From: Heterotrichella gracilis
Taxonomy: Eukaryota > Sar > Xanthophyceae > Tribonematales > Xanthonemataceae
Length of the DNA: 64,000 bases
Reading direction: 5' to 3'
NCBI GenBank assembly: GCA_032358255.1
Contig: JAULBX010002224.1
Location: 186,001-250,000, forward strand
The notes under the pieces were generated by a model, which made no database searches, had not been told where the DNA came from, and saw nothing but the letters and a program-made list of their open reading frames with translations. Shown here one piece after another: positions 52,074 to 63,261 of the stretch. Made by a program: the position numbers and the translations under genes. Positions within the stretch are counted from its first letter, which is position 1. Each line of letters starts with the position of its first letter.

Positions 52074-55000
52074 TCACCAGTGGCCTTCCGCAAGAGTCCA
52101 GGACCCCCCTAGCGGCAGGGACGCATCCACCCCGTCCACAAAGCTGCCACCTGGCACACTCAGCGGCGTCTGCGACAGGCGCTGCGAGCTCCTGCGGGAC
52201 ATGCGCCCCCCGCTGTCCCCGGGACTCGGGGCAAGCAGCGCGCTGTGTGGGGACCCAGTCCCCCCCCTGCACAAGCTGCCATCCTGGCTGGCGGGGATGG
52301 CGATCGCCCGGCTCAGGGACCGCTGCATGCCGTCGCTGCCTTCCCGGATCGACACTGGCCGGCTGGCGCTGCGCTGCAGGTCGAGGCTGCCGGACGCCGC
52401 GGCGCGGCTCAGGGACCGCTGCACGCCGTCTGCGATCCCAGAATTGAAGCTGCTGGTCCCCTGCAGCCCATCATCCAGTGCGATGATACGGCTGGCCGCG
52501 CGCTGCAGCCCTCCATCCAGGGCAAAGATGCGGCTGGCGGCCCGCTGCATGACCTCCCCCATGTTGCGGCTGGGCTGCGACACCATCATTGAGGGGGTGT
52601 CGATGCTGTCCGCCATGCCGGCGCGCGGCGTGGGCGACCGCTGCATGCCCATCTCGGGAGTCCCGGGGATGGCGACCGGGGTTCGCCCACAGGGCTGGGA
52701 TTCCGCGGGGGCGGGGGGGGCGTCCTGCGTGGGGATGTCCAAGGGGCGGGCAGCAGAGTCAGGGGAGGGAACCCGCCTGCTGCCCACCCGCGACATGCTG
52801 AGCAAGCCGCCCTCATCCAGGCGTTGCGATGATGAGCGGCTGTTGGCACGCAGGATGCCGGCAAAGGGACTGGGGTCGATGGGCTCTTCCTCCTGAGGGG
52901 CGGGTGGCGGCACATATGCGTACACCGCGCGCTTGGAGGCAAAGGGGCTCTTGCTGGGCTGCGTTGGGGGGGCGGCAACTGCCGGCGTGGGGGAGCCGGC
53001 TGTCGGCGGCAGCAGTGACGCGGCCGCGGCCACAGGCGCCGGTTTGGCAAAGGCGCCCTTGATGCCCGGGCTCCTGAGGGCTTCAAAGGGGCTCGCGCGG
53101 GTGAAGCTGCCGACTGTGGCTGGGGAGGAGGACATGACGGTGGTGGGCAGGCTGGTGGTGGTGTTGACAAGCTCGAGCGAGCTTGCTGGGCTTGAGTCAG
53201 AGATGAGTGGCGCGGAGACCGGCTCATCCGATGGAGGGGGCTGCCTGGCCAGCCCAGCGTGCGTGGGGCGAGCGGGTGCGCCTTGTGGCAGGGCGTTCCA
53301 GTTGGCGAAGGGGGGCGGCTGCTGCGCGCTGGCGCCGGGCGCAATGAGGCCTGGCGGGGGCGGGGGCTGCTGCCCGGCTGCCCGCAGCTGCGTGGGGCGC
53401 TGGCCACCCAGCGGGAGCGAGCGGAACCCTCCCGAAGGGTACCGCATGAGCGCCACGTTGCGGCGGCGGGCAGCGGAGGATCCGATGCGCGACATGGACG
53501 CGGGGGCGGGGGCCTCCCGCCGGTACGCCGTCAGGTGCACGCGCAGGGTGTCCAGGATGTCCTCGTACGCAGGGCGGTCAGCTGGGTTGTGAGCCCAGCA
53601 GGCGTTCATGAGCTGCCGGTAGGGCTCCGGGCAGGTCTCCGGGACTGGTGGGCGCTTGTGGTCATATGTGAGCGCGATGTACAGCTGGCAGGGGGACAGG
53701 CTTGAGAAGGCCGCCTGGCTGCAGTACAGCTCCCACACTGCAAGGGGGGGACAGGGGTGTGGGTGAGAGTACTGTTGTGGGGAGGGAAGGGGCGTGGGGT
53801 GGGTACAAAGGGAAAGCAGGGATGTGTGGAGAAATGGGGAAGGTGGGAGGGGAGGTGGCGGGCAGTGGAAATGGGTGGACAGTGATGATTCTGTGTAAGT
53901 GATGATGTAAATTATATGCATAGATGCTAGATGGATCAGCCTCAAAGCATGTAAGCCAGTTCATTTTGAATTTATCATGTGCTGCAACTTGTGAGTGGTG
54001 CTATGACACCACATGTCGTAATGAATAATAGATACACTGTTCACCATGGACCACTTGACTGACCCCTGGCCTGTCAACAACCAGCTCAACACACACAGCC
54101 TGGCAATGCACTATCCACGATCCACACCAGCCGCCACACGCTACACATAAAAAAACACAGCCCCAGCCCCACCGCACACGTACTTATGATGCCAAAGGAG
54201 TACACGTCGGTCGCCTTTGACAGCTTGCCCTCAGACAGCAGCTCCGGCGGCATGTGGGTGAGGGTGCCATAGGTCTGCGTCAGGATCTCGGTCTTGTCCC
54301 TCTCCATCATGCGCGCCAGCCCAAAGTCACACAGCTTGCAGGCAAACCCTCTGGGGTTTTGCAGGGTCGAGCGCAGCAGCACGTTGTCTGGCTTGAGGTC
54401 CCCGTGCAGGATGCCCTCGGAGTGGAGGTACTCCATGCCTTGGGCGATGTCGATGAGGGTGCGGTAGATGGTGTGCTGCAGGGGGAGGGGCAAGGAGGGG
54501 GTCAGATGGCGTTTGGCGGAGGGTGGCGATGCGGGGAATGCTGGGGTTGTGGCAAGGGTGCAGCACACAGCATCATGCCTCAGCATGTGGCAAGAGTTTA
54601 TTGCACAGTTGTATTGTCGGCAGGCAGTTTATACTGAAGAGCAGCGGTGTGACTGTGGCAGTGACAGGCAGCAATGTAGAAAAACCGGCAAAGCGTACCA
54701 TGCATGGCTGGGGCTGCGTGTCCTCCGTCATGAACCGCCCCGCCTGCATGGCATCGGTCAGCGACCCCCTGTCGCAGTACTCCATCACCATCCAGGTGGC
54801 CAGGCGGGCGCCACCTGGCGCCGAGCTGGGCGCGCCAAACCCCATCATGTTGCTGGCCAGCAGGCTGTTTGACGACCCCGGTGACACCATCCCCAGGCTG
54901 TTTGGCTGGCCCAGCGACCCGTTTGAGCGCAGGCCCAGGGAGAGGGTGCCAGGTGGCGTGCGCAGGCCGAGCGAGCTGGTGGAGCCCGAGGGGGCGACCA

Positions 55001-56925: not shown

Positions 56926-58477
56926 ATCGGCGATGCGAGGGAAAACAAGGTGCTGCACTGTTCCAACGTGTGTTCAAACTCGCAAACTTGACCTTTGACG
57001 GCTAAACTAACCAACAGGCAGTCGCAACAATCCTCTATGTACGTGTGGGTACCAGTCCTCCTGCCTAGAATATCCAACATAACTTGGTAGGGGCGCAGCA
57101 CAGGTTAGTCAGGTGTGGAAACCGTGCTTTTGTAGGCAGGGAAACGAGGCCTCCAGACAGATAGTCGGGTAATTTACGGAGTACCACTGATATAGTGTTG
57201 CAGGTTGTAGCAACAAGTCGCTGAAGCGCTTGCTTTGCACAGCGAAACGACTATATGCTTGCGGAAAATGGGCACGATGCCCCTACTACTACCCGCAAAA
57301 TTATTGGCCCGGGACACCAACGTCAGCCAAGTGCTCCACCTCCAACTACTCACTCACCTTCCATTAAAGAGCAGAGACTGGGTTTCCCTGTCCGCTGGCT
57401 GTACGTGCACAGTGCCAGAAGCACCGCGAGCACAACCACTCCAGCCCAGAGCCCCCTATTGCCGCGCGGGCAACACTTGCACGCCGAAACCATCGCACAA
57501 GGCTGAACGGATCTGCTACCCAACGCCCATAAGAGAAGCTTTGAGGCGGACCATCGGGGGCTATGGGCTGCTAAGAGCGTCGATGTAGAAGGCCAGTTCC
57601 CGGGCAGTGCACAGTGCAAGGCCAAACGGGCTCAGGCCCTGGGGGGTTGCCCTTGGCAGGGTCACAGCAGATACCTTGCGCACCCCACGTTGGCACACCA
57701 AAGTGACAGGAACAACGAACAACCTTGGCTTGGTTTAGCAGCACACCGTAGCACAGATGATGATAACAGGGCCAGCCACCCAGTGGGTGAGAGGGACCGC
57801 CCCTCTATCGTCACTGACTGGTACGATGAGGGGCCTGCAGGCTGCAGTACACACCAGGCGAAACCGGTCCGCGAGCTTCCAGCGTGGCAAGACGAGTGCC
57901 ACGGGGATCACGCCCAATGAATGACGCTCCTCGTTACAAAACCCACCATCCCCTTGTCTCCCCGCCAACTGACCGCGCTGGCACCGCGGCATTTCGCCAA
58001 AAATAGGCCCCTTACGCAACTTTGGGTCTCTTCGCCTGACATGGTGCTCATTCTGACGTCATTGGGGCGTCTCCACTGCCCTCTCTTGGATGCATGACAA
58101 GATTGCATCAAATAACCTGAACTTTTAGGGCAAAAAGCAGCAAACTTCATGGCCAAAGCTCCAATATCCACCATCTATCAATTTGTAATATCTCCTAGGA
58201 TTGTGAAGTTGCCTAAACCCAGTACAGCCCTGCTGCCTATTCACTGGGCGTAGTCCAGCTGCGTAATTAGCTTAGGTGTTCCAGTCAGTCTCCTCTGTTG
58301 TATTTTGCTAACACGTCAGGACATGGCAGTATCTTAGTTGTACAGTAAAAGTCAACCAACCACCTTCACTTGCTGCAACCAGTCTGCAACTAGTCCAATA
58401 GCCACAGAAATTTCCATGTGGTCAATCTGTACTCAAACGCCCGCATGGGGCTTCTCCAGGTCTGTTCCTCCAGAGCG
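56926..58477. other. Intergenic region, 1.55 kb
   Basis: Upstream region of the kinase gene and 3' flank of the HAD/methyltransferase gene, both on the minus strand. Open frames at 57235-57625 on either strand have no likeness; one contains a hydrophobic run (AGVVVLAVLLALC), but no splice-consistent gene can be built. Confidence 0.45.
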
Positions 58478-61400
58478 CTATTGGCCAGCAGCTGGGGATG
58501 TGGCCACCAGCCGTAGCCGCGCAGGTGCAGCCACCGCCGCCACCTCCTCCACGCTCTGAACAGTGAACCCTGCCACTGCCAGCTGCGACACAACCTCCTC
58601 CTTCGCCTCGCTGCTGGCAATAGGGGCCTCCACACACAACCTGCGTGCGAGGCACATCCAGAGGGTTAATGTTGGTTGGCCCCCCTAGAGAAACCAGTTC
58701 AGCTGCCCCCCCATGGATGCTTTTTTGTTGCGGTGCTCCACTACCAACTGGTCCAGCCAATAGTATGTACCCACGCCACTGTTGTACTACACCAGGGTAT
58801 TGGCACTGGAAATTCCGCTCGGAACAAGGCCTTAGCTGCCATTGCACGTGGCTGTGCAGCAGCAACGCTCATGCAGCAGCAGTGCCCCAGTCTTGCTGTT
58901 GGCGCAACAAAACACTGGAACAAGCAGCCACATGTTTCCACCAGATGGTGGCATGAGATATGGCAACCGCACCGCCCCTCACCTGCCACCTGGCTTCAGG
59001 ATCTGGCGGTACTCATCCAAGCTCCTCGCGCTGTACCAGCTAGCCTCTAGGGGTCCCACGTCGGGAGAGCCATAGTACACAATTGCTTCAAAGTTGTGTG
59101 AACCCACCGCCGGGAGCAGTGTGCCCTCGCCACAAGGGGTGTTCAGAAATGTCACACATTTTAGCCCCCGGGTTTGCGGCACCACCACATCCTTGTCCGC
59201 AGCAACCACCTGCATGGAGGGAGGACAACGCGCATGAGCGCTGCATGGTGCATGGTGCAATGCTGCAGTGCAGCTCTGGCGGCACCGCGCATGACTGGCG
59301 GCTAATGGGGTGACAACAACTACCCAATCATTGCTGGCCATCCACCCATTCTGACTGTAATCTTTGACCCTCAATGCACCACCAAGCCCTTGCTCAAACT
59401 ACATCTGGGACGGCCATCAGACAGCCAAGACCTGACGCCCTATAGGCTTCATCACGGCATGCCCTTAAGACCTCGGCCTAGCAAATCACGGACGTACCAC
59501 AAGACCCTGGCTGGCCATCAGCTTGGTCAGCCCTCCCGGTCCACACTGCAGGTGCAACACCCTGTCCCCTGCCTGTGCGGCCTGCTGGGGTCGGTCATTG
59601 AAGAAGAGGGTCAGCTGTGGGAAGGAGCAGCGCGCACCCACAATGGCACCTGTGGCATGGGCAGTGAGGTCATTCGTGCAAAACCATTGCAATTTTGGTC
59701 GCGGATGTATGAGCATCCACAAGCAAGCAAGCCATCATTGAAGGCTACATGCAACCATTGCATTCGTCTCACAAACCCACTTCCTGCCTTCCACACCATG
59801 GAAGGACCACAGATGATTAATGAGTGACCGACCACAGTTCACAGCTGCCCCCATCTTAATTCTCAATTGAAATTGCTAACAACCTCACCTGAGCCAAAGA
59901 GCGCATCCAAAAAGTCCAGCCCGGGCGGCGCCGCCCCCGCCATGCCATCCTCCTCTTCATCGCTGGACGAGGTGCTGCTGGCAGCTGAGTACGCCGACCA
60001 GCCTGGCGCCACATCGCCCGCTGCCAGCCTGGCATTGAGCTGGGTGAGTGTGGCCACGCTGAATGTGGGCACCGCACCCACAGGCGCTGCGCCGCCCACC
60101 AGGTGGCAGGCCACCTCGTTGCCACCACCTGCGCAGGGAGCACAAGTGGTTATAAAAAGATATATTATATATTCAGCATAGAGATTAATCATGGATTCAT
60201 TTCATGGACATGATTGCCATAATTTATGGACATAACTGCCATCCATGAATTATGTCCCCCCCTATGCCAGACGACCCCCACATTCCCGGCGCACCCACCA
60301 GCAATGAAGCACGTGGCTGTCCCGGCAGCGTTCCCGCACTCCACATCCTCAATGCTGTCCCCCACCATGACCAGCGCGGCAGGCGGCACCCCCCATTCCT
60401 GCGCCACGTGGCGCAGCAGCCGCGGGTCTGGCTTGACGTAGTGAAACTCACGCGTGAGTATGAGCGAGAACAGGTCCCTCCACTGTGGGCCAATGAGGTC
60501 AAAGAAGGCGTCCACGCTGGCGGTGGTGTTGCGGGTGACCAGGGCGATGCGCACCTGGCGCGGGACAACGTAATCACTTCCTTGAATAAAGGTAAGTCGC
60601 ATAGTAAATTACATGGTATTTTATCATAAGAAAACGTATTGCAATGGAGCGTGCCTGTTCACGGGCAGGGGTGCGTAGTACTTTGTAAATTGTTGGCACA
60701 AGTCACTCATGAAAAACGTTTTGTAAGTAACGTAATATTGAAGCCCCCCACATAACCCAACCCGCAGGCCCCGCCAGTGTCCCCACCCACCCACCACCCA
60801 CCTGCCTCTCCTTGAGCCACGTCAGCAGCTCCAGCAGGCCCTCCTGGGCCACCAGCTGTGTCCTTGCAGTGGCCTCAAGCTCAAGGATGACAGCCATGGC
60901 TGCGGCGATGTCCTCCCGCTCCTCCCACGACTCCATGACAGTGAAGAGGTCGCCCGCGGGGATCCCCACGCGCTGCCGCATATCCTGGAAGTCTATGTTG
61001 GAGACAGTGAGAGTGCCGTCCATGTCGAAAACCACCTGGGGATGGTTTTGCAAGGGGGGGTCAAGGAGAAACAAGAAGGAGAGGCGGATGGGCTGGTGCA
61101 GAGGGACAAGGATAATACCTATTCTAGCCACGACCCTCAGATCGCGCACGATCAACAATTGGTATAAACAGTGCCAGGACCAGAGTGCTGGGCGTCGCAC
61201 ATGCAAGACTGACTGCTAAGCTGGCTGCATTGCTGGAATGCATGTAGCTAACTAAGTACCTAGCTAGTTCCCCCTGAGGGCGGTGGAAAAAAGGCCTCCT
61301 GAGCTCTCCATGGGGCTTTGCATTGTGCCCACTGCCCAGTGCACCCACTTGACAGGCAGCAGCTTGCGTGAAGCAGCTGAACTGGTTTAAATTTTGCAGG

Positions 61401-61695
61401 CAGTGGGTTCACAGGCGTTTTGTCGTACCCCTTCATATGGCACCCCTGTGCTGTTTTCCCCGCTGGTGAGGGTATCTGTCACCCCTGCCACGCCTGCAGC
61501 AACTGGGTGCAAGCCACGAGGTCTGCAGTGCAAGGTGCAGCTTGGGTGCTGCAGCTTGCTTCCTGATCTGAGCGTGTTGCTGCCTTTGAACGGCACCCTG
61601 CACCCCCTTGGGCTGGGCGTGGTGTGTAGGGGAGCGCAATGCGTGCCAAAGGCACTGCACTGCTGCAAGTGCTGCGATCGAGCAACTGTCTGCAT
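58478..61695 (-). CDS. HAD-superfamily phosphatase fused to a methyltransferase-like domain, predicted plastid
   Basis: Seven exons (61695-61429, 61035-60802, 60554-60299, 60128-59889, 59649-59498, 59209-58983, 58640-58478) join without phase error to 512 residues. Residues 1-89 look like a plastid transit peptide: basic, Ser/Thr-rich, few acidic residues. About residues 90-285 form a complete HAD phosphatase: motif I VVFDMDGTL, motif II IALVTRNT, motif III lysine in HYVKPDPRLL, motif IV MVGDSIEDVECGNAAG. An acidic Ser-rich linker (SSTSSSDEEEDGMAG) follows. The C-terminal 190 residues have a class I SAM-methyltransferase outline: DRVLHLQCGPGGLTKLM (motif I, degenerate), VVAADKD, FEAIVYYGSP, LKPGGRLCVEA. 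That domain also resembles the methyltransferase-like N-domain of anamorsin/Dre2, without its cysteine clusters. Substrates are unknown. Exons 5-7 share a frame with the HAD exons through exact phase matches, which supports a true fusion. Confidence 0.85.
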
Positions 61696-63261
61696 CACAG
61701 AGTATTCTTAAGCTTGACAGGACGTAGAGTAGCTGGTTAGGCTGCTGTGGCTTGGTGTTGTTGCTTCAGTACAAGAAGTGAGCACAATGCACTGCCTCAA
61801 TGTTGAATGTTGAGAGAGGAGAATAAATAGAGTGATCTGAAGAGATATGGAGATGCCCAAAAGCAACGGGAACAACTGTTGATAAATACTTTAGCTACAA
61901 GTTCTATAAGTTCGAATAATTTGCAACCTGGTGAACCGTATATGCATGCATGCGATTGGGACACACTTGGTTCCCCGCAGCCTGTGGCACGAGCAGTAGA
62001 CTTTAGCAGCGAAGTCACGTCGTTAGCAGTGCCTGAATTTCTTCTCAGTGTACACTGTGAACTATTCAAAGTTGCAAAAAGCTGCAATATATTCCCTGAG
62101 TGGCAGCCTGCTCAGGTCACCTGAGCCTCAGGCTGAGGCCCTCGGTATGTCAAAACCCTAACACCCTACATAAATACTATATTTCTCCGAGATATGGGCC
62201 ATGGGTGCATGGTACATGGTGAGCTGCAAAAATTGTTGTAGCTGAGCTGGGTGAGGATGAACTGGAAGGCGCAACCCAGTATCACACTTGGAGGTTAGCT
62301 TCCTGCATAGTATGTGTCTCTGGTTCCTTTGCAGTTGAGCCTTTTGCGACCATGCATCACCTGGCTGGCGTTCAGTCAAACGCTAAGCGCTCCACCTGTG
62401 GTGCCCTGGTGTTAGTCTTTCAAGACCTCAGCAGACAGATACTGAGGGTACTGTTGGTGGATAAACAGTACCCTCAGTATCTGTCTGCTGAGGTCTTGAA
62501 AGACTGAGCTTGAGAGCTCCTGATTAATCAAGTTACAAGGCAGCAGTAGCCGGTGCCAATCTCAATGCAGTGCACACGAAGCCTTGCTGACGCCGGCTAC
62601 GGTATACCTTGATCCTTGTAGTGTAGGAGCAAAATAGAGCCTGCAGTTGCAGATCAGACATGTTGCACAACACCAGGCCTGGCAATTTCCAGACAACAAA
62701 ACAAGCTGCCCTCATAAATAATAAAATGTCAGGGAACAAACCAAGACGGCCCTACCAATTGTATAGGATACCAACTTATAACCATAATTTAATCAAAATT
62801 GGATTTTATCAAGTGCGGCGAGTCTGCCGCAGTGCCGCTTGTTATTACTTCTCAAAATCACCCAGTGAAAAAAAATCCCAATTTTCATGCATTTTTTGCA
62901 ACCCCGTATTCGATTGCGCTTGTTGCGGAAACAACACAGCAATGGATCACCTGGTATATTTAGCCCGTTGTGTGGTACAATCATGCACACGAGCCCAGCT
63001 AGGTTGCCGGACTGCCATACTTGAAATCAAAACAATTCGTGCGCATCAACCACTTCCCCATACCAAATCGCATTGAAGGTGTTCAGCAAAGATGGATGTA
63101 CACATAGCGTGCTGCAGGTGCATTTAGGTATCTCGTGGCAAGAGCTGCACTCAGCATCAGGCTGCCCATGTGGTTCTTGGAGGTGACGGTCGAGGACTGG
63201 GGTCATGAGCGTCCCTTGGGGATTTGGTAGGCTTGCTTCCATTACCTCTGCCCACTATAGC
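61696..63261. other. Intergenic region with long perfect hairpin
   Basis: Upstream region of the HAD/methyltransferase gene (-) and 3' flank of the right-edge gene (-). No coding exon is supported. The notable content is the inverted repeat at 62414-62505 and a degenerate telomere-type motif (AAAACCCTAACACCC) at about 62150. Confidence 0.45.
62414..62505. repeat. Perfect 42-base inverted repeat with 8-base loop
   Basis: Left arm 62414-62455 begins AGTCTTTCAAGACCTCAG; right arm 62464-62505 is its exact reverse complement; the loop is GGTGGATA. I found no mismatch in 42 pairs. I see no flanking target-site duplication and no ORF. A small-RNA precursor or a foldback element are the two main readings. 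Confidence 0.9.

Follow-up and report, generated by a model that had tools for sequence, protein, structure and literature searches.

A predicted algal HAD phosphatase with a C-terminal methyltransferase-like domain and a probable organelle-targeting sequence

The locus and its gene model

The window analyzed here, a 64-kb stretch of DNA that forms part of contig C24 in an assembly of 68.5 Mb and 903 contigs, carries on its minus strand, between positions 61695 and 58478, a chain of seven exons that reads as one continuous frame of 513 codons (512 residues and the stop). All six introns are of the GT...AG type with a CAG acceptor, the phases agree across the whole chain, and an in-frame TAA lies five codons upstream of the ATG; the single in-phase exon chain proposed in the initial annotation is thus confirmed. 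The features of the gene, hereinafter the fusion gene, are as follows:

Exon 1, 61429..61695, minus strand: residues 1-89, beginning with the start codon and likely to target an organelle (plastid), with an open frame and a GT donor
Exon 2, 60802..61035, minus strand: HAD motif I (DMDGTLT) and cap, residues 90-167
Exon 3, 60299..60554, minus strand: HAD motifs II (T174), III (K208), and IV (D233, D237)
Exon 4, 59889..60128, minus strand: end of the HAD part (to about residue 287), then an acidic Ser-rich linker (to residue 332)
Intron 4, 59650..59888, minus strand: between the HAD part with its linker and the methyltransferase-like domain
Exon 5, 59498..59649, minus strand: start of the methyltransferase-like domain, with motif I VLHLQCGPGG (residues 363-372)
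Exon 6, 58983..59209, minus strand: D388, the acidic residue of beta-2, and onward to include the LKPGG turn
Exon 7, 58478..58640, minus strand: remainder of the domain, closed by the stop codon; coding score 0.57

The reading of the N-terminus as a transit peptide is taken solely from the composition of residues 1-70, which include zero D or E, a feature by which plastid and mitochondrial targeting cannot be separated. Among the exons scored, the coding signal is lowest in exon 1 (codon score -0.11, no frame preference; exons 2 and 3, being codon training data, were left unscored), as can occur in targeting sequences. We consider the N-terminus to be probably an organelle-targeting sequence, with the plastid favored over the mitochondrion; of the plastid transit peptide predicted initially, the organelle-type composition stands.

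The chlorophyll a/b-binding (LHC) family accounts for 27 matches in the assembly among the matches listed, three of them on C24, which marks the host as a photosynthetic eukaryote. The RuBisCO large subunit has no match in the assembly at E 1e-10, as expected if the plastid genome lies outside it. An Rfam scan of the 64-kb window gave no match. A perfect inverted repeat with two 42-base arms and an 8-base spacer occupies 62414-62505 of the window, some 700 bases ahead of the start codon; it reads as either a strong hairpin or a short relict of a mobile element. Downstream of the fusion gene, in GC-rich surroundings, a minus-strand open frame (52077-53960) encodes the C-terminal part of a protein kinase domain, scoring 30.5 bits with PF07714 (cut-off 23.1).

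The HAD part and its relatives

Residues 88-258 match the HAD model PF00702 (73.3 bits; cut-off 26.4) and exceed the NCBIfam cut-off of TIGR01509 (51.2 against 29.4). The catalytic residues are complete in the spliced protein, namely D93 and D95 (DMDGT), T174 (LVTRN), K208 (YVKPDP), and D233 and D237 (GDSIED), so the initial claim that all four HAD motifs are intact is borne out; with these motifs and its scores above curated cut-offs, this part falls in the HAD hydrolase superfamily, subfamily IA type. HAD superfamily enzymes carry out Mg-dependent hydrolysis of phosphate esters via an aspartyl-phosphate, and we infer that the HAD part is a phosphatase of small phosphate esters acting through a phosphoaspartate. 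Its closest solved structure is PDB 2ybd (E 1.1e-18), and its family signature is DMDGTLTxxxIDFxxM.

A second HAD gene, on contig C835 (L013:2100-4600, minus strand), is 38% identical to the HAD part of the fusion protein, with which its catalytic motifs line up, and its frame is closed by a stop shortly past the HAD part. Its apparent intron includes a run of N. A GLDFLDALFG-like string elsewhere on C835 (L013:8420-8515, plus strand) was judged a chance match (E 0.40). The HAD part of the fusion protein presumably resembles Arabidopsis At2g33255, and the gene on C835, rather than the fusion gene, is probably the counterpart of At2g33255. That plant HAD protein is described as having 245 residues, an expected chloroplast location, and no activity on the phosphate esters tested, with a caution from the authors regarding folding (PMC3607736). 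At this length it has no room for a second domain, unlike the fusion protein.

Both algal HAD sequences were used to search the genome_contigs collection, which gave at least 591 stretches, and the best 80 of at least 456 relatives were taken; the same two-sequence query found one relative in viral_contigs, at 20% identity, and a single HAD sequence found none there. These relatives belong with a HAD family represented by PDB 2ybd, 3m9l, and 3r09 and occurring in Pseudomonas, Lentisphaerota, and Kiritimatiellota, which shares the catalytic motifs of the fusion protein and is about 40% identical to it in the nearest bacterial rows. The fusion protein differs from this family in its C-terminal extension: in all 81 fetched relatives (the best 80 of at least 456, plus the one from viral_contigs) the frame closes with a stop, in the 80 that are readable it does so 182-200 residues past the match start and near the equivalent of residue 287, with a C-terminal extension in none, and in the remaining one, L028, the frame is broken and closes after 102 residues. 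The order of a HAD followed by a methyltransferase was met in none of the 81, in keeping with the initial view that the two-domain order is unusual. The term single-domain refers here to the C-terminal side, and open frames of more than 100 residues (up to 364) lie upstream of the HAD start in 8 of the 81 loci. Phage records with a match number seven, all of them inside the HAD part or at its C-terminal edge. In two Lentisphaerota loci (L014 and L016) a gene that we named endonuclease III-like by eye from its translation lies directly 3' of the HAD gene.

In a tree of 79 bacterial and two algal HAD rows, from which L028 with its broken frame and the viral-collection hit L094 were left out, the two algal sequences are sisters with weak support (69/62) and long branches, and the pair stands beside PVC-type bacteria (88/84 and 88/86, on a branch that is not starred). 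This position suggests that the algal HADs derive from a PVC-bacterium-like gene that was later duplicated. A cyanobacterial origin was rejected, as one of 292 cyanobacterial genomes had a match at E<=1e-15, and that one was the center of the draw, picked for having the family.

The C-terminal domain resembles class I methyltransferases

The region following the linker (residues 333-512; 180 residues), hereinafter the C-domain, scores below the cut-off with every curated model listed. Searched alone against Pfam it gave Anamorsin_N at 24 bits (cut-off 27.1), Methyltransf_11 at 16.6 (21.2), and Methyltransf_23 at 15.9 (27), and all 11 NCBIfam models listed likewise fall below theirs; among the latter, CpaM matches 36 residues around motif I (E 2.4e-7), and a model for demethylmenaquinone methyltransferase matches at E 1.1e-4. 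In profile-profile comparison with hhalign, a profile built from five bacterial methyltransferases aligned with the C-domain at a probability of 96.6% and a score of 65.2, against 26.5 for the best of 60 shuffles, and the similarity extends over the Rossmann-like core of class I methyltransferases. Against the same profile the HAD domain reached 1.2% and the N-domain of the genome's own Dre2 0.8%. Four of the five rows had been picked by likeness to the C-domain (L095-L097 by tblastn, L104 by the LHLQC pattern), and the one row not so picked, L011, which entered via the Anamorsin_N model, scored 27.9 when used alone (probability 21.5%; shuffle maximum 16.9, n=60) and 28.5 together with L104 (shuffle maximum 24.9). 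Judged from these profiles, the resemblance of the C-domain to class I methyltransferases is real, and the SAM-methyltransferase-like fold first noticed after the HAD part is upheld.

Like UbiE, CpaM-like, and other class I SAM-dependent methyltransferases, the C-domain matches the profile from motif I through LKPGG; it differs from them in having H at the acidic residue of motif I and Q at its first glycine, a short C-terminus, and sub-cut-off curated scores. The stretch containing L011 (G000:C331:408696-411833) belongs to the same assembly as the fusion gene, is 36% GC, and holds three tightly packed intronless frames, one of which resembles UbiE by eye; the stretch has the look of DNA from a contaminating or co-cultured bacterium.

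A resemblance to the anamorsin N-domain, raised in the initial annotation, proved not to be specific. The N-terminal domain of Dre2/anamorsin is a short methyltransferase-like fold and the C-domain shares with it a weak Anamorsin_N score, but this model also fires in prokaryotic controls (8 of 14 genomes, in one of them over the cut-off), and it is the C-domain rather than the Dre2 N-domain that matches the bacterial methyltransferase profile. The iron-sulfur CIAPIN1 domain of Dre2/anamorsin is missing from the Pfam hits of the fusion protein, and the genome, whose one CIAPIN1 match is on contig C264, has a separate Dre2 that gives no meaningful BLASTP match (best E 2.7). Moreover, the C-domain retains a glycine-rich loop, whereas yeast Dre2 is described as being without one (PMC3440578).

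The C-domain is the only copy in the genome at the sensitivity of the search used. No direct relatives were found in viral_contigs (46 pattern matches) or genome_contigs (193 pattern matches), and PHROGs gave no match to it. Among eight bacterial genomes with a HAD relative, two had a C-domain match at E<=0.1 (best 0.006). As for a cyanobacterial origin of the C-domain, which we rejected, one of 292 genomes had a match at E<=1e-3, with the look of a generic methyltransferase.

Motif I and the possible role of the C-domain

The five-row alignment places the two glycines G369 and G371 of motif I, the acidic residue D388 following beta-2 (an invariant column), and the LKPGG turn among the positions retained in the C-domain. 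Motif I itself, VLHLQCGPGG, departs from the acidic plus GxGxG form, with H365 at the acidic position and Q367 at the first glycine. A search of 150 Pseudomonadota genomes for LHLQCxxG gave 34 places, spread over 32 of the genomes, and the reversed control pattern gave 13. Of the 34 places 30 were read; L104 is clearly a methyltransferase, and none of the other 29 is one by eye, some being LHFQC or FHLQC. The LHLQC variant of motif I is thus real but rare. The bacterial protein L104, with the motif I LHLQCHFG, scores above four Pfam methyltransferase cut-offs and above no NCBIfam cut-off. It shares LHLQC with the C-domain at motif I, but the two are not close relatives, their BLASTP match being insignificant (best E 0.036) and away from motif I. 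Given that L104 scores above Pfam methyltransferase cut-offs, the variant alone does not establish a loss of function in the C-domain. Thus, of the initial proposal of a degenerate SAM sensor based on LQCGPGG, the absence of the acidic residue stands, and the argument drawn from it is weak in view of L104 and of the retained D388 and LKPGG.

Of the roles that the C-domain may have, a regulatory or docking one seems the likeliest and that of an active transferase comes next. For the whole protein, we hold it about an even call that this is an organelle-targeted, probably plastid, HAD phosphatase with an acidic linker and a C-terminal methyltransferase-fold module that is regulatory or docking rather than catalytic. 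The first alternative is a true bifunctional enzyme, in which the C-domain, with its variant motif I, would itself catalyze SAM-dependent transfer, either on the metabolite of the phosphatase or on a partner. The positions retained in the C-domain and the presence of LHLQC in L104 fit such an enzyme, as does the link between loss of the acidic residue and altered SAM chemistry in nicotianamine synthases that is drawn in a survey of SAM-binding proteins; but the same survey describes the acidic residue of motif I as near-omnipresent (PMC1282579), and here both it and the first glycine are replaced. L104, whose own activity is putative, passes no NCBIfam cut-off, and at 180 residues the C-domain is short, seemingly too short for a large substrate-binding insert. 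Nor do bacteria show a conserved HAD/methyltransferase neighbor pair: at 80 HAD loci, taken with flanks of up to 3000 bases, 1931 reading frames reach 100 residues or more, and one of these (L042) gave a weak methyltransferase-profile match (E 0.00068). On balance a bifunctional enzyme is a possible reading that we hold with doubt, and the regulatory or docking module remains the preferred one.

One gene or two

In the second alternative the locus would comprise two neighboring genes: the HAD gene would stop at 59863, inside intron 4, and a methyltransferase-like gene would begin in the same intron from an ATG near 59716. This reading draws on the frame of exon 4, which stays open for about 26 bases of intron 4 before meeting a stop, on the in-frame ATG upstream of exon 5, and on the bacterial HAD relatives and the second HAD gene, which stop at the end of the HAD domain as two genes would predict. 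Against it, the phases agree across intron 4, and codon usage separates the two sides of the question: the 45-codon linker has a mean log2 codon score of 0.38 (99% limit for size-matched intron pieces -0.02) and exon 5 scores 0.23 (limit 0.01), while the 22 codons that the alternative start would add in intron 4 score -0.51, the same as the intron mean, on a scale built from a small training set of eight coding segments that include HAD exons 2-3 of the fusion gene, with the same six introns of this gene as background and null. Since the linker is exon-like and the would-be new N-terminus intron-like, one gene is favored. The two putative genes would moreover be separated by no more than 239 bases, a stretch in which each of the three frames is stopped and the sense strand lacks both TGTAA and AATAAA; the lack of these signals is a weak sign, because TGTAA is present in intron 2 and occurs nowhere within 500 bases 3' of the gene's stop (the first within 1500 bases being at 57938). 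For the fusion as known from genomic DNA of one assembly, we thus judge two separate genes to be unlikely. The least likely reading, and a very improbable one, is that the C-domain has decayed or been misread and is without function. Its sub-threshold curated scores and the lack of a close relative for a test of selection might hint at this; against it, the frame is open over three exons with coding-like codons and the fold-defining positions are retained.

Proposed function and origin

Under the preferred reading of a phosphatase with a regulatory or docking C-terminal module, the product of a nuclear gene would enter an organelle, probably the plastid, where the HAD part would hydrolyze a small phosphate ester; the C-terminal module may bind SAM/SAH or a partner protein and thereby tune or place the phosphatase, rather than methylate the same metabolite. 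As regards its history, the boundary between the domains lies near the exon 4/5 junction, suggesting that the C-domain was probably acquired at an intron, and the simplest course would be a gain of this kind by one copy of the duplicated PVC-bacterium-like HAD gene. Both domains are of known kinds and their combination is provisionally new: no description of a HAD-methyltransferase fusion was found in the literature searched, which covered few subscription papers.

Tentatively, and at a rather low likelihood, the fusion protein might be a plastid phosphatase gated by or coupled to SAM/SAH via the fused methyltransferase-fold module, or else might combine phosphatase and transferase activities, the latter with a variant motif I. 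For the substrate of the plant-type HAD, the fused second domain may offer a clue to the pathway or to its control. Were the SAM/SAH-gated reading true, the protein would tie plastid phosphate metabolism directly, at the molecular level, to methyl status.
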